NCBI RefSeq assembly: GCF_005502745.1
Contig: NZ_SCNL01000002.1
Coordinates: 186,001 to 250,000 of the forward strand
Source: Sphingomonas sp. 3P27F8
GTDB taxonomy: Bacteria; Pseudomonadota; Alphaproteobacteria; Sphingomonadales; Sphingomonadaceae
Length of the DNA stretch: 64,000 bases
Direction: 5' to 3'
Shown: one piece after another, positions 4,157 through 53,961 of the stretch
Layout: each line of letters begins with the position of its first letter
How positions within the stretch are numbered: the stretch's first letter is position 1
The notes under the pieces: generated by a model
What the model was told of the DNA's origin: nothing
Databases searched by the model: none
The model's input: the letters and a program-made list of their open reading frames with translations, nothing else
Made by a program: the position numbers and the translations under genes

Positions 4157-4957
4157 CTAAACAGCCGTCCGCCCATATTCCTGCTTGGTAACCGGATGGC
4201 TGGAAGACAAGCCGCCATCCACCGCGATCGCCTGCCCGTTGACGTAACTGGCGTCATCGGAAGCGAGGAACAGCGCCACCTTCGCGAGTTCATCCGGCTG
4301 CGCGCCGCGGCGCAACGGGTTCAGACGGCCAACGCGATCCATCTTTCCCGCATCGCGCGCATAATCGAAGGTCGGTTTGGTCATGCCCGTCTCGGTAAGG
4401 CCGGGGCAGATCGCGTTGACCCGCACGTTCGATCCCGCAAGCTGCTGCGCGGAAACCTGCGCGAGATTGATGACACCCGCCTTTGACGCGGAATAGGCCG
4501 GCGATCCCGCGCCGGAGCGGATGCCGGCCACGCTGGCGGTGAGGACGATAGCGCCCCTGCCGCGTTCGGCGATGCGGGGTGCGGCATGCTTTATCGCCAG
4601 ATACGGGCCGATCAGATTGACGCGCAACACCTCGGTGATGAGCGACACATCTGTGTCGAAGATATTCGCCATCCCTCCCGAGATGCCGGCATTGGCGAAC
4701 ATTACGTCGAGCCCGCCATAGCGATCGACAGCGAGCGCGATCGTCCGGATCACATCGTCCTCGGCCCCTGCGTCCATACGGATCGCCTCCGCCATCCCGC
4801 CCGCATCGCAAATCGCCCGCGCGGTTTCCTCGACGCTGTCAGACACGTCCGCGACGATCACCTTGCCGCCTTCCGCCGCAAACAATGTCGCGGCTGCGCG
4901 GCCGATGCCGGAGCCCGCGCCGGTGACGATGATCGACTTGCCGGTGAACCTGCTCAT
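4157..4957 (-). CDS. SDR family oxidoreductase
   Basis: Classical short-chain dehydrogenase/reductase of 266 residues. The Rossmann motif TGAGSGIG is at 12-19, NAG at 89-91, the catalytic Ser at about 142, and the YxxxK pair at Tyr155/Lys159. Asp38 at the end of beta-2 (VADVSD) predicts NAD(H) rather than NADP(H). It is the last gene of the minus-strand operon acyl-CoA dehydrogenase, alcohol dehydrogenase, kinase, SDR, SDR. A likely role is 3-hydroxyacyl-CoA or secondary alcohol oxidation in that pathway, but this is inferred from context only. Fifteen bases separate it from the upstream SDR. A GC-rich hairpin directly after the stop (about 4136-4157) has no U-tract. Confidence 0.92.
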
Positions 4958-4972
4958 CCCCGCACTCTCCTC

Positions 4973-5752
4973 TTAAATCGTAACGCCGCCGTCGATTACC
5001 ATCACCTGCCCGGTCATGAAGCCGCTCGCCTTCGACGCGAGATAGACGACCGCGCCCGCGATCTCTTCCGGCTCGCCGATACGGCGTAGCGGCGTGGTGC
5101 GATTGCGCTCCGCCACTGCCGCCTCATCCTCCCACAGCGCCTTGGCGAAATCGGTTTTGATAAGGCCCGGCGCGATGCAGTTCACGCGGATGCCGTGCTT
5201 GCCGTATTCATGCGCCAGATTGCGCGCGAGCTGCATATCGGCTGCCTTTGAGATGCAGTAAGCACCGATGATCGGTGATCCGCGCAGCCCGCCGATAGAC
5301 GAGACGATCACGATCGACCCCCCCTCGTCACCTCTGGCGCCCCGCTCCTTCATTTCGGGCGCGACCATGGTGATGAGCCAGTGATTCGACACGATGTTGT
5401 TGTCCAGGATCTTGCGGAACTGTTCGTCCGCGATCCCTTCCTGCGGCCCGTAATAGGGATTGGACGCGGCGTTGCAGACCAGGCAGTCGATCCGCCCGAA
5501 AGCGCGCCGCGTCTCGTCAACCAGATGCTGGAGCCCCGCCTTGTCGGAGATGTTGGCGGCGACCGCGATCGCCGTGCCCGCGCCGAAACGCGCGTCGATC
5601 TCGGACGCTACCGCATCGCAGGCATCCTGCTTGCGGCTGGATATCACCACCTTGGCCCCCTGCTCAGCACAGGCGATGGCGGACGCCTTGCCGATCCCGC
5701 GCGAGGAACCGGTGATGAGCACGACCTTGCCGGTCAGATCGAACAGCGACAT
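4973..5752 (-). CDS. SDR family oxidoreductase
   Basis: 259-residue classical SDR: cofactor loop TGSSRGIG at 14-21, NAAS in place of the usual NNAG at 94-97, active-site Ser152, and Tyr165/Lys169. The end of beta-2 reads SSRKQ, so a basic residue at this position points to NADP(H). The C-terminus (GFMTGQVMVIDGG) is typical of 3-oxoacyl/2,4-dienoyl reductase-like SDRs. It lies 14 bases after the kinase gene and 15 before the next SDR, so all are probably co-transcribed. The two SDRs differ in predicted cofactor, so they probably catalyse different steps. Confidence 0.92.
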   Translation of the reverse strand: MSLFDLTGKVVLITGSSRGIGKASAIACAEQGAKVVISSRKQDACDAVASEIDARFGAGTAIAVAANISDKAGLQHLVDETRRAFGRIDCLVCNAASNPYYGPQEGIADEQFRKILDNNIVSNHWLITMVAPEMKERGARGDEGGSIVIVSSIGGLRGSPIIGAYCISKAADMQLARNLAHEYGKHGIRVNCIAPGLIKTDFAKALWEDEAAVAERNRTTPLRRIGEPEEIAGAVVYLASKASGFMTGQVMVIDGGVTI

Positions 5753-5766
5753 CTCAGTACCTCCAA

Positions 5767-6825
5767 TTATGCCCCGGCCTTGACTGCGAACGCCCAGGCG
5801 GCATCGGCCAGCAGCGGCACCCGCGCGCTGGACGCCTCTGCATTCGCATTGGAGGCTGTACCGATCAGGAAGCGCTTCTTGATCCCCTGCACGATCGAGG
5901 CAAGGCGGAAGAGATTGAACGCGATATACCAGTTAAGGTCCGGCAATCCCTCTGGTCGCCCGGTCTTTTCACAATAGCGTGCGACAACCTCTTCGATGGT
6001 CGGGATCCCCGTCGCCTCCCCTGTCAGCCCCATCACGCCGGAGCGCCCCTCTGGCTCCGTTACCCAGGAGATGAGGAAATAGGAGAGGTCCGCGATCGGA
6101 TCCCCCAAGGTGCACAGCTCCCAATCCAGCACAGCTGTCACGCGTGGCTCCAGCCCAGGCGCGAACTTCATGTTATCGCAACGATAGTCGCCGTGCACGA
6201 TCGACGTGCGCGTCTGCGGCGGCAACGTGCGGGGCAGAAATTCGATCAGCTGCTCCATCGATTGCATATGCTCGGTTTCAGCGCCGCGATATTGCTTGGT
6301 CCAGCGCGACACCTGCCGCTCAAAGTAATTGCCGGGGCGTCCGAAGGTCTCGAGCCCCGCGGCGACGTGATCGACGTTGTGCAGCGCCGCCAGCGTATCG
6401 ATCATCGCGTTGTAATGCGCGCGCCGCGTGTCGGAATCCATGCCGGGGAACGCGCCGTCCCAGATCGTCCGCCCCTCGACCATTTCCATGACGTAAAAGG
6501 CCGATCCGATCACCGCATCGTCTTCGCAAAGGCCGAACGGGCGCGGCACCGGAAAGCCGGTGGGGTGAAGCCCCGCGATGACGCGATATTCGCGGTCCAC
6601 CGCATGCGCCGAAGGAAGCAGATCCCCCATCGGCTTGCGCCGCAACACATAATCGCGCCCCGGCGTGGAAAGCTTGTAGGTGGGGTTCGACTGGCCGCCC
6701 GCAAACTTGGCATAGCTCAGCGGGCCAGCGTAATCCGGCACGTTGTCGGCCATCCAAACGGAGAGGCGACCGGTATCAAGGCGATCTCGATCGGCGATCT
6801 CTTCCTGCAGGCTCGCGTCACTCAC
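5767..6825 (-). CDS. ACAD10/11-type APH-fold phosphotransferase (candidate hydroxyacyl-CoA kinase)
   Basis: 352-residue aminoglycoside-phosphotransferase-fold kinase. GGQSNPTY (43-50) and YVLRRKP (59-65) form the nucleotide-binding lobe with the ATP-contacting Lys. HGDYRCDN (211-218) is the catalytic loop with Asp213, and LDWE (233-236) carries the metal-binding Asp. The stretch around LLPSAHAVDREYRV closely recalls the N-terminal kinase domain of human ACAD11. Bacterial relatives include LvaA, which phosphorylates 4-hydroxyvaleryl-CoA. The likely role is phosphorylation of a hydroxyacyl-CoA so that the neighbouring dehydrogenase can eliminate phosphate. Its start codon overlaps the stop of the alcohol dehydrogenase (ATGA), indicating translational coupling. 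It is not an antibiotic-resistance gene by context. Confidence 0.9.
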   Translation of the reverse strand: MSDASLQEEIADRDRLDTGRLSVWMADNVPDYAGPLSYAKFAGGQSNPTYKLSTPGRDYVLRRKPMGDLLPSAHAVDREYRVIAGLHPTGFPVPRPFGLCEDDAVIGSAFYVMEMVEGRTIWDGAFPGMDSDTRRAHYNAMIDTLAALHNVDHVAAGLETFGRPGNYFERQVSRWTKQYRGAETEHMQSMEQLIEFLPRTLPPQTRTSIVHGDYRCDNMKFAPGLEPRVTAVLDWELCTLGDPIADLSYFLISWVTEPEGRSGVMGLTGEATGIPTIEEVVARYCEKTGRPEGLPDLNWYIAFNLFRLASIVQGIKKRFLIGTASNANAEASSARVPLLADAAWAFAVKAGA

Positions 6826-7910
6826 TGGTCGAACACGATCACGCTGCGGGTGGAATCGCCCTTGCGGAGTTCGTCGAATGCGTCGTTAATCCGCGCGAGC
6901 GGCAGCCGCTCGGCGATGATCGTGTCGAGATCGAGCAGGCCGCGCTGGTAGAAATTCACCAGACGCGGAATATCGACCGGGAAGCGGTTGTATCCCATGA
7001 TCCCACCTTGCAGGCGCTTGCCCGACAGCAAGTCCATCGCCGACAGGCCGACCTTGTCGCCGAGCGGCATCATGCCAAGGATAGTCGCGGTGCCACCACG
7101 CCGCAGCACCTTCACCGAGGTTTCCGCCGATTGCGGGCGGCCAACCGCCTCGATTGCATGGTGGACGCCGCCCTTTGTCAGCTCGATCACCTCGGCGACC
7201 GTATTGTCCGCGAGCGGGTCATAGCTGTGCGTGGCGCCCAGCTTCTCCGCGATGGCGCGCTTTTCCGGCACGGGATCGAGCGCGATGATCTTGCCCGCGC
7301 CGGCGATCTTCGCGGCATTCACCGCTGCCAGGCCAATGCCGCCGCACCCGACGACGCATACGGTCTCGCCCGGCGATACATCCGTCGTGTTGAACACCGC
7401 GCCCGCCCCGGTCGTCACCGCGCAGCCGATCAGCGCGGCGCGATCGAGCGGCATGTCCCGATCGATCGCGACACAGGCATGCTCGTGCACCAGCATCATC
7501 TCGGCATAGGCCGAAAGGTTGAGCATCTGATTGACCGGGTCGCCATTCGCCAGCCGCAGCCGCGGCTCCGATCCAGCAGCACGACGCGTCTCTGCACCAA
7601 GACAGAGGTACATCCGCCCCGTCACGCAGAATTCGCAATGTCCGCAGAACACCGACAAGCAGGTTACGACATGATCGCCCGGCTTCACCGTTCGCACTTC
7701 GTCACCCACCGCCTCGACGATACCTGCCGCCTCATGGCCCGGAACGCCGGGCAGCGGATGCGGATAGGCGCCATCGACGAAATGCAGATCGGAGCGGCAC
7801 ACGCCGCACGCCAGGGTGCGGATCAACACCTCGTGCGCGCCAGGTTTGGAAACGACCACATCGGTCACTTCCAGCGGCTTCTTTGCTTCGAACAATACGG
7901 CGGCCTTCAT
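6822..7910 (-). CDS. zinc-dependent alcohol dehydrogenase (MDR family)
   Basis: 362-residue medium-chain dehydrogenase. Catalytic-zinc residues are in CGVCRSDLH (Cys near 36) and GHEAAGIVEAVG. The structural-zinc lobe is CGHCEFCVTGRMYLC. The cofactor domain carries GCGGIGLAAV, and Asp after beta-2 (IALDPV) predicts NAD(H). The ending TRSVIVFD is typical of Adh-type enzymes of the AdhC/class III-like group. It would oxidise an alcohol to an aldehyde or ketone. It is the second gene of the minus-strand operon; its stop overlaps the kinase start by 4 bases, while a 71-base gap with a perfect hairpin separates it from the upstream acyl-CoA dehydrogenase. Confidence 0.93.
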   Translation of the reverse strand: MKAAVLFEAKKPLEVTDVVVSKPGAHEVLIRTLACGVCRSDLHFVDGAYPHPLPGVPGHEAAGIVEAVGDEVRTVKPGDHVVTCLSVFCGHCEFCVTGRMYLCLGAETRRAAGSEPRLRLANGDPVNQMLNLSAYAEMMLVHEHACVAIDRDMPLDRAALIGCAVTTGAGAVFNTTDVSPGETVCVVGCGGIGLAAVNAAKIAGAGKIIALDPVPEKRAIAEKLGATHSYDPLADNTVAEVIELTKGGVHHAIEAVGRPQSAETSVKVLRRGGTATILGMMPLGDKVGLSAMDLLSGKRLQGGIMGYNRFPVDIPRLVNFYQRGLLDLDTIIAERLPLARINDAFDELRKGDSTRSVIVFDQ

Positions 7911-7933
7911 GCGCCTCTCCTGTCTGGTTCCGT

Positions 7934-7955
7934 CGCCCCGGCCGCGACCGGGGCG
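7934..7955 (-). other. intercistronic hairpin
   Basis: Perfect 8-bp inverted repeat CGCCCCGG / CCGGGGCG with a 6-base loop, lying between the acyl-CoA dehydrogenase stop and the alcohol dehydrogenase start. No U-run follows on the minus strand, so it is more likely an mRNA-stability or partial-attenuation hairpin than a terminator. Confidence 0.4.
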
Positions 7956-7981
7956 TTACATTTCATCATTTATGCGGCCGA

Positions 7982-9289
7982 TCAGCGCGAAACGCCGATA
8001 TCCCCACTCGATACCTCGCTGCCGCCATGCGCCGCCGGGCGCTCCGCTTTCCAGTCGGCATATTTGCCGAACTCGTCGCGGGCGATCGTGCGGGCGTGCA
8101 CCTCATCCGGCCCGTCCGCGAGCCGCAAGGTGCGCATCGCGGCCCAGGCATGAGCCAACCCGAAATCCTCCGCCACGCCGCCGCCGCCATGGGCCTGCAC
8201 CGCATCGTCCAGGATCTGCAACGCCATGTTGGGCGCATAAACCTTGATCATCGCGATCTCCAGCTTCGCAGCCTTGTTGCCTGCCTTGTCCATCATGTCG
8301 GCGGCCTTGAGGCACAGCAGGCGCGTCATCTCAATATCGATGCGGGCGCGGGCGACGCGCTGTTCCCATACGCTGTGATCCGACAATCGCTTGCCGAATG
8401 CGACCCGGCTCACGAGCCGCCTGGCCATCTTCTCGATGCCGACTTCGGCGACGCCGATCGAGCGCATGCAATGGTGGATACGCCCCGGCCCGAGCCGGCC
8501 CTGCGCGATCTCGAACCCGCGCCCCTCGCCCAGCAACAGGTTCTCCACCGGCACGCGGACGTTGGTGAACGTCACTTCGCCGTGGCCGTGCGGCGCATGG
8601 TCATAGCCATAGACGGACAGCATCCGCTCGATCTTCACACCCGGCGTGTCCATCGGCACGAGAATCTGGCTCTGCTGCTGGTGGCGCGAACCCTCGAAAC
8701 TGGTCTTGCCCATCAGAATGCCGATCTTGCAACGCGGATCGCCGACGCCTGAAGACCACCATTTGCGGCCGTTGATGACATAATGATCGCCGTCGCGCTC
8801 GATCCGGGTCTCGATATTGGTGGCGTCGGAAGAGGCGACCTGCGGCTCGGTCATCAGGAAGACGGACCGTATTTCACCGTTCATCAGCGGGCGGAGCCAC
8901 TGCTCCTTCTGCTCGCGCGTGCCGTAGCGGTGAAGAACTTCCATGTTGCCGGTATCGGGCGCCGAGCAATTGAAGCATTCGCTCGCCCAGCCGATCTTGC
9001 CCATCTCCTCGGCGCACAGCGCATATTCGAGATTGGTGAGCTGCGTCCCCTCGAACTCGAACGTGTCGTCAACATGATGCTGGCCGGAATGCGGCGGCAT
9101 GAAGAAATTCCACAGGCCGGCCTCCTTGGCCTTGGCCTTCACTTCCTCGATTACCGGGATCACCTTCCACGGATCGCCTTCATGATGCTGGCGATCGTAC
9201 TCGGCCTGCCGCGGGCGGATATGCTGATCAATGAAATCGCGTACCCGGTCCCGGAAATAGGTTTCGCGCTCGCTCAGCGTGAAGTCCAT
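7982..9289 (-). CDS. acyl-CoA dehydrogenase, ACAD10/11-like
   Basis: 435-residue acyl-CoA dehydrogenase. [12 protein letters not shown] is the flavin/substrate loop of the middle domain, followed by [12 protein letters not shown]. The signature [21 protein letters not shown] and the C-terminal LADGPDEVH are the blocks that characterise human ACAD10/11 and their bacterial relatives. ATG 9289 is chosen because GGAGGGATGT lies just before it and the protein then starts MDFTLSERE; 28 extra codons are open upstream. It is the first gene of the operon with dehydrogenase, kinase and SDRs. In the ACAD11 model it would remove phosphate from a phosphorylated hydroxyacyl-CoA to give an enoyl-CoA. A tandem-TetR regulator is divergent. 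Confidence 0.93.
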
Positions 9290-9444
9290 CACATCCCTCC
9301 AAAGCCTGTTTCGCAGTGGCTCTAAACCGTACCCATCTTTCGGTAAAGCGTATGAATCATCATTTTGCCCCAACGGAAACGGCCGGTCGCGCGCTGACGA
9401 AAAGAGGACTGTTTCTTCGAAATGTAGATGCTAAGAGTATTCGG
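9290..9444. promoter_or_regulatory. divergent promoter region between acyl-CoA operon and tandem-TetR gene
   Basis: 155 bases between two divergently transcribed genes, where a local TetR regulator would be expected to bind. An imperfect inverted repeat ACCG (9326-9329) / CGGT (9341-9344) inside TAAACCG...CGGTAAA is the only symmetric element I could find. I could not assign confident -35/-10 boxes. Confidence 0.35.
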
Positions 9445-10689
9445 ATGCACGGCACGGGGGATACCGGCCAAGGAGAGGATACGAGCACGCGGCGCTTCCG
9501 GGCGAAGCGTGATGCGATCCTTGCCGCGGCCGCAGACGCGATCAACGAACAAAGCGCGAAAGGCATGACTTTCGCGGACGTTGCCCGACGCGTAGGCCTG
9601 AACACCACCAGCGTCACCTATTATTTCAAACGCAAGGAGGATCTGGCGGCAGCCGCGTTCGAGCATACGCTCGACTATCTGCTTCAGATGCTCGAGGAAT
9701 CGATGCTCGAATCGACGCCGGAAGCGCGCGTCGAGCGTTATCTTGTGCTGAACATGGCACGGCTTGCACGGGTGCAGCGAGGCGAGGAGCGGCAGATGGC
9801 CGGCCTCTCAGATCTGCGTGCCACGGACGAGCCCGTGCGCTCCCGCCTGATGGCACAATGGCGGGAAGTGTTCCGCCGTACGCGGCTGTTGTGGGGGCCG
9901 TCCGACACGCGCGGCACGACCGATCTGAACGGCGCACGCGCGCATGTGTTGCTGGAGAACACCTTCTGGTTGCCGGTGTGGCTCGTGCGGTACGATCCCG
10001 ATCAATATGCACGCGCCGAAGCGCGGCTGATGGACGTATTCCGCCACGGCATCGCCGGTTCCGGTGCGGTGTGGAACCCGGCTCCGGTCGACTTGCCGCA
10101 TGACGAGGCCGTGCCCGGGCGCGAGGCCTTCCTGCTGGCGGCGACGCGGCTCATCAACGAACTCGGCTATCGCGGCGCCTCGGTGCAGCGGATCGCATCG
10201 GAGCTGAATGTCACCAAGGGCAGCTTCTATCACCATCTTGACGCCAAAGACGATCTGGTCGTCGCTTGTTACAAGCGCAGCTTCGATACGATCGCGACCG
10301 CGCAGCAGCGTGCTGACGAACGCGGCGGCACCCAGTGGGATCGCCTGGCGGGAACGATTGCGACGCTGCTTGACGTGCAATTCTCGGAGCTTGGGCCGCT
10401 GCTGCGCACCACGGCGCTAACCGCGCTGCCGATCGGCGTGCGGCAGGTAATGGTGGAGCGATCGAACCGCATCGCACGCCGTTTCGCCGGCACGATCTCC
10501 GATGGGATCGCGGAAGGGACGATCCGCCCGGTCGATTCGTTGATAGCGGCGCAGGCGCTGATGGCGTTTCTCAACGCCGCGTTTGATATGCGCAAATGGG
10601 CATGGTCGATGCCGCGAGAACGCGCCATCGCGCTTTATGCCTCCACACTCACCTTCGGGCTTTTCGACGATCGCTTGATCGAAGGCTAG
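9445..10689 (+). CDS. tandem-TetR transcriptional regulator (two TetR domains in one chain)
   Basis: 414-residue protein with two complete TetR-type N-terminal domains in one polypeptide. The first, near residues 12-65, has FADVARRVGLNTTSVTYYFKRKEDL as its helix-turn-helix. The second, near residues 220-275, has VQRIASELNVTKGSFYHHLDAKDDL. Each is followed by an all-helical ligand-binding region. ATG 9445 is chosen because the protein then starts shortly before the first TetR domain; AAGAG is a weak upstream ribosome-binding site, and 43 more codons are open upstream. It diverges from the ACAD10/11-like operon and probably controls it in response to an acyl-CoA. Its stop overlaps the end of the convergent AraC gene by 4 bases. 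Confidence 0.9.
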   Translation: MHGTGDTGQGEDTSTRRFRAKRDAILAAAADAINEQSAKGMTFADVARRVGLNTTSVTYYFKRKEDLAAAAFEHTLDYLLQMLEESMLESTPEARVERYLVLNMARLARVQRGEERQMAGLSDLRATDEPVRSRLMAQWREVFRRTRLLWGPSDTRGTTDLNGARAHVLLENTFWLPVWLVRYDPDQYARAEARLMDVFRHGIAGSGAVWNPAPVDLPHDEAVPGREAFLLAATRLINELGYRGASVQRIASELNVTKGSFYHHLDAKDDLVVACYKRSFDTIATAQQRADERGGTQWDRLAGTIATLLDVQFSELGPLLRTTALTALPIGVRQVMVERSNRIARRFAGTISDGIAEGTIRPVDSLIAAQALMAFLNAAFDMRKWAWSMPRERAIALYASTLTFGLFDDRLIEG

Positions 10690-50908: not shown

Positions 50909-51949
50909 CTAACCAGGCGTAAGCACCATCTTCAATGCGCCTGCCTCGCGCCGCTCGAACAGCGCATAGGCCTCCGCGCCTTCACTTAGCGGGAGGCGGT
51001 GGGTGATATATTTCTCCGGTCGCAAACGGCCAGATTGGACTAGCGGAAACAGCACCGGCAGTTCTTCCGGCACCGAGCAGGTTCCCGTGCGGAAGGTGAG
51101 CCCAGCCGCGAACGCCCGCTCCAGCGGAAAGGGAAAACGCCGCGACTGCTGTACCCCGATCACAGAGACGGTGCCGCGCGGGCGCACCAGCCGAAGCGCC
51201 AGATCGACCGTCGCATCGCTGCCGACCACCTCGACTGCGCAATCGAGCTTGCGACCTGCGGTGGCATCCCGAATTTTCTCCAACGCCTCTTCCGGATGGA
51301 GCGCGATCGCGCCCGCGTCCGCCGCGAGCGCGCGCCGCTCAGGCACGGGATCGATTGCATAGACGATATGCGCGCCCATGACGAAGGCACTGTCCACGGT
51401 CATCAGCCCGATCGGCCCCAGCCCGATCACCGCCACACTGCTACCGGGCACGATATCGGCGTTGCGCGCGCCGAACCAAGCCGTCGCCATCGCATCAGTC
51501 ATCATCAGCGCCTGTTCCGCAGACACGCCATCGGGGATTATCACCGCGTTCATGTCGGCAGCGGGCACCCGCACCGCCTCCGCCTGAGAACCCTGCAGTC
51601 GCGCCGACAAGCCGTAGCAGCCGCCTAGCCCGAACTCGCAGCGATTGACCACGCCTGCAAGGCAATAGCGGCACGCGCCGCAACCGGCCGCCGCCGGGAT
51701 CATGACCTTGTCGCCAATCTTCAGCCGGTTCACCGCGCGTCCTGTTTCCACCACCTCGCCCACCGCCTCGTGACCGACGCAGAAGCCGATATCCTCGGAA
51801 AAGCCGTGGCCATGGTAGATATGAAGATCGCTGCCGCAGATTGAGCACGCTTCCACCTTGATGATGGCGTCACGATCCGATTGCGGGATGGGATCGTCCA
51901 TTCCCTCGTAACGGACATCGCGCGCACCGTAATAGCGAAGAGCCTTCAT
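50909..51949 (-). CDS. zinc-dependent MDR alcohol dehydrogenase
   Basis: 346-residue medium-chain dehydrogenase. Catalytic zinc ligands are in CSICGSDLH and GHEAVGEVVETG, and the structural-zinc lobe is CGACRYCLAGVVNRC. The Rossmann motif GLGPIGLMTV is followed by an acidic end of beta-2 (YAIDPV), which indicates NAD(H). Family resemblance is to the formaldehyde/threonine dehydrogenase-like Zn-ADHs. It lies 21 bases downstream of the acyl-CoA dehydrogenase at 51971 and is co-transcribed with it, so the substrate is probably an alcohol from the same pathway. Confidence 0.92.
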   Translation of the reverse strand: MKALRYYGARDVRYEGMDDPIPQSDRDAIIKVEACSICGSDLHIYHGHGFSEDIGFCVGHEAVGEVVETGRAVNRLKIGDKVMIPAAAGCGACRYCLAGVVNRCEFGLGGCYGLSARLQGSQAEAVRVPAADMNAVIIPDGVSAEQALMMTDAMATAWFGARNADIVPGSSVAVIGLGPIGLMTVDSAFVMGAHIVYAIDPVPERRALAADAGAIALHPEEALEKIRDATAGRKLDCAVEVVGSDATVDLALRLVRPRGTVSVIGVQQSRRFPFPLERAFAAGLTFRTGTCSVPEELPVLFPLVQSGRLRPEKYITHRLPLSEGAEAYALFERREAGALKMVLTPG

Positions 51950-51970: not shown

Positions 51971-53197
51971 TTACCGCACGTTCGCGGCGACATATTCGGC
52001 GATCTTCTGCTTGCCGAGCTGCGACATATGCACCTCTTCCGGCCCATCGGTCAGCCGCACGTAACGATTCAGTGTGAAGAAATATGCGATCGGCGTGTCG
52101 TCACTGACTCCCATCCCGCCGTGCGCCTGAATCGCGCGATCGGAAACGGTCTGCGCCATTTTCGGCGCAATCACCTTGATGGCCGCAATCAGATCCTTCG
52201 CCCGCCTGTTGCCATATCGATCCATCGCATCGGCTGCCTTCAGCGTAAGCAATCGAGCCATCTCGACCTCGCAGAAACTGCGCGCCACATCCTGACGGAT
52301 GCTGCTTTGATCGGCCAGCTTCTTGCCGAATGCGACCCGGCTGTCGACGCGGCGCGCCATATATTCCAGCGCGCGCTGCGCCTGCCCGATCGAGCGCATG
52401 CAGTGATGGATGCGGCCTGGCCCGAGCCGCCCCTGCGCGATCTCGAACCCGCGACCCTCGCCGAGGATAAGATTCTCCTTGGGTACGCGGACGTTGTCAA
52501 AACGCAGCTCCACCTCGCCACCCGGTGAATTATGCGAGCCGAATACGGTGAGATGCCGCACCACCTCAACGCCCGGGGTGCCACGCGGAACGAGGATCTG
52601 CGAATGCTGTGCGTGGCGCGGTGCGTCGAAATGGGTCTTGCCCATCACGATGAAAATGTCGCACCGCGGGTGCATCGCATTCGAGATCCACCATTTGCGG
52701 CCGTTTATGAGGTAATAGCCGCCGTCGGGGATGATCGACAGCTCCAGATTGGTGGCGTCGGAGGAGGCGACCTGCGGCTCGGTCATCACATACGCCGAGC
52801 GAATCTCGCCCGCGAGCAGCGGCTTCAGCCATCGCTCCTGCTGCTCGGCCGAACCGAACCTGGCGAGCACCTCCATGTTCCCGGTGTCAGGCGCGGAACA
52901 GTTGAACACCTGGCTCGACCACGGCACCCGCCCCATCGCCTCCGCCAGCGGCGCATATTCGAGATTGGACAACCCGGGCGAGAACGCGCCATATTCGTGC
53001 GGCAGGAACAGGTTCCACAGGCCCTGTTCGCGCGCCTTGGCCTTCAGCGCCTCCATCCCCGGCCATTCCTTCCACAGGTTCGCCTGGTCGTGGACGAAAT
53101 CGTAATAGGCACGCTCGTTGGGATAGATATGCTCGTCCATGAAGGAATCGAGCCGCGCCAGCAGATCGGCCACCTTTTCGGTAAACTCGAAATTCAT
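51971..53197 (-). CDS. acyl-CoA dehydrogenase, ACAD10/11-like (second copy)
   Basis: 408-residue acyl-CoA dehydrogenase of the same subgroup as the one at 7982. Shared blocks are [61 protein letters not shown] and LTDGPEEVH. The stretch between is shortened relative to 7982. It is preceded by AGGGCTAG-type spacer and an upstream palindrome shared with the divergent TetR gene. It has no kinase partner beside it; the downstream partner is an MDR dehydrogenase. Substrate is unknown; the shared signature suggests the same chemistry as ACAD11. Confidence 0.93.
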
Positions 53198-53280: not shown

Positions 53281-53322
53281 GAGCATTTGACTCGGTCGGC
53301 TGTCAATGCCACGCCGCCAGCG

Positions 53323-53961
53323 ATGAAAACCCCGGTGACACCAGGTCGCGCGGAGCCGGCCGCGCAGATCAAGGCGGTCGCGCTGAAACTGTTCGCGGAA
53401 CGCGGGATCGACGGCGTTTCGGTTCGCGAGATCGCGACCGCCGCCGGGCAGAAGAACCATGCCGCCCTCACCTATCATTTCGGATCGAAGGACCGGCTGA
53501 TCCGCGAACTGATCGTCGATGGCGCGCGCGCGATCGACGATCGCCGCAACGCGTGGCTCGATCAGGCGGAGGCGGGCGGCGGCCCCCGCACGGTGCTGGA
53601 AGTAATGGAATGCCTCGTCCGCACCTCCGTCTCGCTCGATGCGCCGACGTGCAGCGAATGCTATAACCGCTTCCTGATCGGCGTGCAGATGTCGAACCGC
53701 AACATCCTGACCGATGCGCTCGGCGACCGGTGGAATTCCGGCTATCAGCGGTGCCTGCGGCATATTCGCCGGCTGATGGCCGACGTCTCCCCGGCATCGC
53801 TCAACCAGCGCCTCGTATTCATGGGCGCGGCGCTGGGCGGCATCATGGCCGCGCGAGAGAATGAACTGGCGGATCATTCACGCCCGCACGCGATGTGGTC
53901 TCGCGACGCCACGCTTTCCCATATCGCGAAATCGATCGCGGCGCTGGTCGAACAGCGCTGA
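53323..53961 (+). CDS. TetR family transcriptional regulator
   Basis: 212-residue repressor. The N-terminal DNA-binding domain is QIKAVALKLFAERGIDGVSVREIATAAGQKNHAALTYHFGSKDRL, with the HTH recognition helix around KNHAALTYHFG. The helical C-terminal ligand domain has CSECYNRFLIGVQMSN. ATG 53323 is taken as start since the domain begins about 20 residues later; a TTG twelve codons upstream is possible. It diverges from the acyl-CoA dehydrogenase/MDR operon over a palindrome, so local repression with an acyl-CoA inducer is likely. Twelve bases separate it from the SulP gene. Confidence 0.93.
   Translation: MKTPVTPGRAEPAAQIKAVALKLFAERGIDGVSVREIATAAGQKNHAALTYHFGSKDRLIRELIVDGARAIDDRRNAWLDQAEAGGGPRTVLEVMECLVRTSVSLDAPTCSECYNRFLIGVQMSNRNILTDALGDRWNSGYQRCLRHIRRLMADVSPASLNQRLVFMGAALGGIMAARENELADHSRPHAMWSRDATLSHIAKSIAALVEQR

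Follow-up and report, generated by a model that had tools for sequence, protein, structure and literature searches.

A Sphingomonas operon with separate kinase and dehydrogenase genes of the ACAD10/11 type, predicted to act on 4-hydroxyacyl-CoA

The biochemistry of the animal enzymes ACAD10 and ACAD11 is recent (2024–2025), and the bacterial side of this chemistry has so far been tied mainly to levulinate. Kinase and acyl-CoA dehydrogenase (ACAD) orthologues from Burkholderia replaced the corresponding parts of ACAD10 in vitro (PMC11342911; this and the other papers cited here are represented by excerpts of their text). In the levulinate (lva) operon, a regulator, the kinase LvaA, the 12-kDa LvaB, LvaC, the short-chain dehydrogenase/reductase (SDR) LvaD and the ligase LvaE are encoded together with transport genes (PMC9399607, PMC6692424), and lvaABCD homologues in Alpha-, Beta- and Gammaproteobacteria have already been published (PMC6692424). 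Here we describe an operon that encodes a kinase and a dehydrogenase of the ACAD10/11 type as separate genes, located in a 64,000-nucleotide stretch of the genome of Sphingomonas sp. 3P27F8 (contig NZ_SCNL01000002.1, positions 186,001 to 250,000), hereafter the window. The chemistry is already known, but few descriptions exist of the version formed by this gene set and its control region; among the matches listed, which covered the open-access literature only, there was no description of the operon in Sphingomonas.

The operon occupies positions 4157–9289 of the window in a genome of 4.06 Mb, and its five genes are in the order ACAD, alcohol dehydrogenase (ADH), kinase, SDR1 and SDR2, with intergenic gaps from the ACAD to SDR2 of 71, −4, 14 and 15 bases. 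All five open reading frames (ORFs) were located on the minus strand at the positions given in the original prediction, and both motifs that it had quoted were present in the kinase and dehydrogenase. The kinase (5767–6825, minus strand) is a predicted 4-hydroxyacyl-CoA kinase of the APH fold whose ORF has a GTG start and a 4-base overlap with the ADH gene. The ACAD (7982–9289, minus strand; 435 residues) is predicted to be phosphate-eliminating; its start is the ATG at 9289, with GGAGG upstream, and the ORF list instead begins at the TTG at 9373.

Comparisons of the two proteins, with mouse ACAD11 as the reference against which kinship was measured, indicated that both are of the ACAD10/11 type, at scores well beyond chance. 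The kinase matched Pfam APH with an E-value of 4.3e-53 and scored 364 bits to 3dxp, 242 to mouse ACAD11 and 200 to 9o56, the next score being 35; it was 50% identical to 3dxp and 38% identical to the mouse ACAD11 kinase. The ACAD matched the Pfam acyl-CoA dehydrogenase domains and scored 447 bits to mouse ACAD11 (54% identity) and 431 to 4hr3 (51% identity), with the first PDB sequence beyond that set at 146. The structural model of the kinase (pLDDT 91.3) had Z-scores of 40.4 to 3dxp and 23.1 to ACAD11 (229 residues aligned), and that of the ACAD (pLDDT 82.0) had Z-scores of 47.4 to 4hr3, 47.0 to ACAD11 (8v3u) and 46.8 to 2wbi, followed by 39.2. The closest solved structures of the kinase and the ACAD, 3dxp (reut_a1007 from Ralstonia eutropha JMP134) and 4hr3 (from Mycobacterium abscessus), both carry a function described as “putative” in their titles.

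Phylogenetic trees were built from matches of at least 240 residues (kinase) or 330 residues (ACAD), of which 222 and 191 were kept, and thinning at 70% identity gave 75 of 224 kinase rows and 40 of 195 ACAD rows, with 2wbi removed. The window kinase grouped with the ACAD11 kinase and 3dxp among 41 rows (support 98/99), and the window ACAD with mouse ACAD11 and 4hr3 among 20 rows (support 97/99). A separate kinase group of 14 rows (support 100/99) drew 12 of them from loci with DUF6285. The original prediction had named placement outside the ACAD10/11 and LvaA clades as what would refute it; the outcome favoured ACAD10/11, both proteins being inside the ACAD10/11 groups, and the kinase stood apart from the DUF6285-linked kinases that served as stand-ins for LvaA. 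The deepest order within the kinase and ACAD groups is open, some branches are very long (up to 3.9), and the tool gave a warning for the kinase tree that long branches meet.

The residues important for catalysis in ACAD11 were also retained. The kinase carries equivalents of the ACAD11 DRE motif, R176, the HGD motif (with the catalytic D220) and N225, and the ACAD carries equivalents of R626, R631, H634, R637 and the catalytic D753. (Residue numbers in PMC12440821 equal the printed-chain numbers plus 1; its kinase R86 could not be matched by number, and the Arg beside the helix-C Glu was taken in its place.) In ACAD11, replacement of R626, H634 or R637 by Ala or Leu was the most disruptive and caused the phospho-intermediate to build up (PMC12440821). 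R626, H634, R637 and D753 occurred together in 28 of the 40 ACAD tree rows, the window's included, and the other 12 rows had none of the four. Sequence, trees, folds and catalytic residues agreed, and the kinship to the two halves of ACAD10/11 that had been proposed for the kinase and dehydrogenase is upheld on these grounds. Alignment of the ACADs also revealed an insert, HVDDxFxFEGTQ, at about residues 70–83 (window positions 9042–9081), which was present in 13 Sphingomonas-type ACADs and absent from the other 8 alignment rows.

We consider it likely, and the best reading of these sequence comparisons, that the kinase phosphorylates a 4-hydroxyacyl-CoA and that the ACAD then eliminates the phosphate; the two reactions are taken over from published work on ACAD10/11 and on the Burkholderia orthologues. 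The kinase would use ATP to place a phosphate onto the 4-hydroxyl of the 4-hydroxyacyl-CoA, and the ACAD, with FAD, its catalytic Asp and the Arg/His/Arg cluster, would expel that phosphate to yield a 2-enoyl-CoA, which would be completed by the ordinary β-oxidation of the cell. By this route, 4-hydroxy fatty acids most likely enter ordinary fat breakdown through the operon, the identity of the substrate being what we infer. The SDRs and the ADH would most likely interconvert 4-oxo and 4-hydroxy compounds, or oxidize a precursor alcohol ahead of the kinase.

The ADH (6822–7910, minus strand) is a zinc-dependent enzyme of the MDR type, based on its Pfam ADH_N and ADH_zinc_N domains, and its 319.8 bits against the NCBIfam model of NDMA-dependent ADHs fell short of the 440-bit cut-off. 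SDR1 (4973–5752, minus strand) is DHRS4-like, DHRS4 being its best PDB match, and SDR2 (4157–4957, minus strand) matched adh_short_C2. In SDRs, an SSRK-type sequence after the second strand favours NADP(H) and an ADVSD-type sequence NAD(H). The second strand ended in SSRK in SDR1 and in ADVSD in SDR2, and the two enzymes are accordingly predicted to use NADP(H) and NAD(H), respectively, consistent with the different cofactors originally predicted for them.

The kinase–ACAD pair is conserved in the genus. Kinase matches (E 1e-100) and ACAD matches (E 1e-110) were each found in 57 of the 61 genomes of the genus, and in 54 of the 57 kinase-bearing genomes the best ACAD match was upstream of the kinase, on the same strand and within 5 kb. 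The exceptions were two genomes in which the ACAD was located elsewhere (G856 and G867) and one that had none (G844). In 48 of the 54 pairs there was an ADH-sized gap (more than 900 bases, judged by length, the contents not being checked in each). The nearest named relatives of the kinase, at 70–89% identity, were all in Sphingomonas records, and the 22 named Sphingomonas loci with a kinase identity of at least 69% had, within 4 kb, the ACAD in 22, the ADH in 21, SDR2 in 21 and SDR1 in 16 (L028 stops at a contig end, and SDR1 of L026 is in two pieces). A kinase match at E 1e-50 was present in 118 of 149 genomes of a larger sample of the family.

Several observations weigh against the proposed function. 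Outside the named Sphingomonas loci the gene set was seldom seen: the other 58 named kinase loci had, within 4 kb, an ACAD10/11-type gene in 7, SDR1 in 3, SDR2 in 2 and the ADH in none, and the 33 of them flanked by 4 kb or more on each side had these genes in 3, 2, 2 and none, respectively. Viewed from the ACAD side, in 40 regions chosen by hand from the search matches, there was a kinase match in only 23 (18 of 35 outside the genus and 5 of 5 within). Six of the 54 operons had no room for the ADH between the ACAD and the kinase, and no SDR1 match was found in L024, L031, L032, L033 or L178–L180; neither gene is therefore essential. In addition, the operon itself is without a CoA ligase, so that CoA activation must come from elsewhere. 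A profile scan of the five genes found no CoA ligase, enoyl-CoA hydratase or thiolase, and the “complete hydroxyacid route” of the original prediction was not borne out. A FadJ-like gene, with enoyl-CoA hydratase and 3-hydroxyacyl-CoA dehydrogenase parts, lies about 7 kb from the end of SDR2 (C22:180974–182998), in a convergent gene run that starts below the window, ends within it and also contains two more ACADs and a TesB thioesterase. TesB was near the operon in 9 of the 22 named Sphingomonas loci and in 5 of 5 genus regions.

For comparison with lva, we used lva-like loci picked by gene order alone from 59, 119 and 398 genomes of one genus of another class. One of these, L216, has the order sigma-54/PrpR_N regulator, APH, DUF6285, ACAD, SDR, AMP-binding and SSF, and from the position of DUF6285 we infer that LvaB corresponds to this family. 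The L216 kinase and ACAD were 30% and 34% identical to their window counterparts, and its SDR was 33% identical to SDR1 and 37% to SDR2. The L216 ACAD (read from its first Met, and incomplete) shared 37% identity and 54% similarity with mouse ACAD11, compared to the 56% identity printed for LvaC (PMC11342911); we therefore termed L216 lva-like only, as either it is not a true lva locus or the published percentage measures something else. The window operon, in the order ACAD-ADH-kinase-SDR-SDR and with no ligase, differed from L216, in line with the prediction that its order is unlike lva. No LvaE-like ligase, transporter, sigma-54 regulator or DUF6285 was found in it by profile scan. There is also no room for LvaB, because the kinase shares 4 bases with the ADH and is separated from SDR1 by 14 bases; the excerpted text of PMC6692424 describes a P. 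citronellolis cluster as likewise without an LvaB gene. Membership in lva was rejected on this order and content.

A levulinate pathway, in which the SDRs reduce levulinyl-CoA and the kinase and ACAD process 4-hydroxyvaleryl-CoA, would share the chemistry proposed here, and an SDR reductase belongs to lva (PMC9399607, PMC6692424). However, none of the genes among or next to the five could be LvaB, the sole DUF6285 match of the genome being on contig C42, the lva-type ligase, transporter and regulator are lacking, and the kinase is outside the DUF6285-linked group, which together make this pathway very unlikely. The same kinase-plus-elimination chemistry may instead act on another hydroxylated substrate, such as an alcohol or acyl-CoA with a terpenoid or steroid side chain, or at another hydroxyl position. 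The second-best fold match of the kinase model was the 25-hydroxy steroid kinase (9fsg; Z 27.4, rmsd 3.4, 320 residues aligned; phmmer E 0.00015), an enzyme of the same fold that uses ATP to phosphorylate a tertiary steroid alcohol, not an acyl-CoA, en route to an alkene in an ATP-dependent dehydration (PMC8449060). Kinase–ACAD pairs also lie near a P450 gene on one Sphingobium and one Sphingopyxis plasmid, and the former carries a gene annotated as a 3-alpha-hydroxysteroid dehydrogenase. We regard such a substrate as unlikely, however, as identity to the steroid kinase was only 19%, compared to 38% with ACAD11 and 50% with 3dxp. The ACAD11 kinase arginines and the ACAD residues are retained, and in the cell assay of ACAD10, as excerpted from PMC11342911, 5- and 6-hydroxyhexanoate gave no phospho-product.

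The SDRs also allow for a stereochemical role. With the R form of 4-hydroxyhexanoyl-CoA, the kinase part of ACAD10 gave about fourfold more product than with the S form (PMC11342911), and two SDRs of opposite cofactor use could serve to invert the less favoured form. The SDRs, with the ADH, would then turn S-4-hydroxyacyl-CoA, via the 4-oxo compound, into the enantiomer preferred by the kinase, under a dedicated two-TetR switch, and β-oxidation could take in 4-hydroxy acids of either configuration, or gamma-lactones. Inversion cannot be general because several operons are without SDR1, and we consider this role distinctly unlikely. Finally, the locus could be an ordinary acyl-CoA dehydrogenase operon with an unrelated or resistance-type phosphotransferase, as would fit the deposited annotation of such pairs, “phosphotransferase” and “acyl-CoA dehydrogenase”. 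This is extremely improbable given the drop in ACAD score from 447 bits for ACAD11 to 146 for the next PDB sequence that does not belong with ACAD11 and 4hr3, the R626/H634/R637/D753 set, which is all-or-none across the tree rows, and the kinase score against the APH(3') resistance model, 27.9 bits out of 205. Aminoglycoside resistance was rejected on the last of these scores.

The control region between the operon and the divergent regulator contains conserved blocks. The regulator (9316–10689, plus strand, its true start not fixed) has two TetR domains in one chain, recognized from two TetR_N stretches, and all 22 named Sphingomonas loci and all 5 genus regions had a match to it upstream of the ACAD on the opposite strand. 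An operator-like block, TTTACCGAA-N5-GGTAYGG, lies between the regulator and the ACAD start (9327–9347, minus strand). A start pattern was available for the upstream alignment in 20 of 27 loci (L023, L025, L030, L031, L032, L176 and L180 were left out), and all 21 aligned rows had, upstream of the ACAD, a block near CTTTACCGAA-N5-GGTAyGG, with small changes in some. The L033 version contains the perfect palindrome TACCGAATATTCGGTA, and another conserved block, resembling TTTCGAAGAAACAGTCC, is nearer the regulator. We propose the palindromic block as a candidate operator, at which the two-TetR regulator would probably act to repress the operon. The window had one site against 0.23 expected, for a pattern written from that very site, and with at most two mismatches the genome had one site, compared to five for the reversed control; the candidate therefore rests on conservation, not rarity. 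A sigma-70 scan found 0 promoters against 1.6 expected, and there were 3 terminator-like sites against 4.8 expected.

Related genes were found elsewhere in the same genome. A second ACAD10/11-type dehydrogenase in the window (51971–53197, minus strand) is 55% identical to the first, has all the signature residues and was inside the same tree group. Its neighbours are an MDR dehydrogenase (50909–51949, minus strand) and a divergent TetR gene (53287–53961, plus strand), with no kinase among them. In five Hyphomonadaceae loci (L037, L038, L040, L041 and L044), a kinase lies 1–4 kb from a 57–59% relative of this MDR gene. An ACAD on contig C40 (L007) grouped with the ACAD of an lva-like locus, and on contig C42 (L107) the DUF6285 gene is near another kinase, which was detected by tblastn and not by a strict kinase motif. 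Based on the C40 ACAD and the C42 genes, several phosphorylation–elimination modules may coexist in the genome.

Separate kinase and dehydrogenase genes, on which the original prediction had remarked, occurred in many bacteria and are already in print (PMC11342911, PMC6692424), including the lva operon and the working Burkholderia orthologues; the split is therefore ordinary for bacteria, and we rejected it as a surprise. Named plasmids of Sphingobium, Sphingopyxis, Sulfitobacter and Rhodococcus also have adjoining kinase and ACAD10/11-type genes (in Sulfitobacter with an SDR between), which are annotated only as phosphotransferase and acyl-CoA dehydrogenase, and the present analysis suggests a function for pairs with these labels. 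Sneathiella and relatives (L054, L056, L060, L061, L062 and L081) have two kinases of this family in tandem, perhaps one per enantiomer, and in L056, L060, L061 and L081 a convergent ACAD10/11-type gene adjoins the tandem. Two metagenome-assembled genomes labelled Klebsiella pneumoniae (L082 and L088) had kinases that group with those of Gammaproteobacteria, Myxococcota and Acidobacteriota, and their labels look doubtful. Present in most sampled genomes of a common environmental genus and equipped with redox partners and a regulator of its own, the operon offers a simple bacterial system that could show which 4-hydroxy acids nature offers, whether an unfused pair works and how enantiomers are handled.

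Compared to animal ACAD10 and ACAD11, the window kinase and ACAD are homologous over nearly their full length, and the catalytic Asp of both halves, the DRE motif, R176, N225 and R626/H634/R637 are identical to those of mouse ACAD11. The animal enzymes are single chains, whereas here there are two ORFs with an ADH gene between them, joined by two SDRs and a regulator with two TetR domains. A HAD domain is a further part of ACAD10 (PMC12440821), and none was found in the operon proteins by profile scan. As in the LvaA and LvaC orthologues of Burkholderia pseudomallei, which we likened by their published description (PMC11342911), the kinase and ACAD are separate. The operon shares with lvaR-lvaABCDEFG of Pseudomonas putida a kinase, an ACAD and an SDR, predicted here to serve a 4-hydroxyacyl-CoA, but is without its LvaB, ligase, transporter and sigma-54 regulator, and the kinases and ACADs of the lva-like loci fell in other tree groups. 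The window operon would thus carry out the same chemistry as lva in a different subgroup and with a different gene set.

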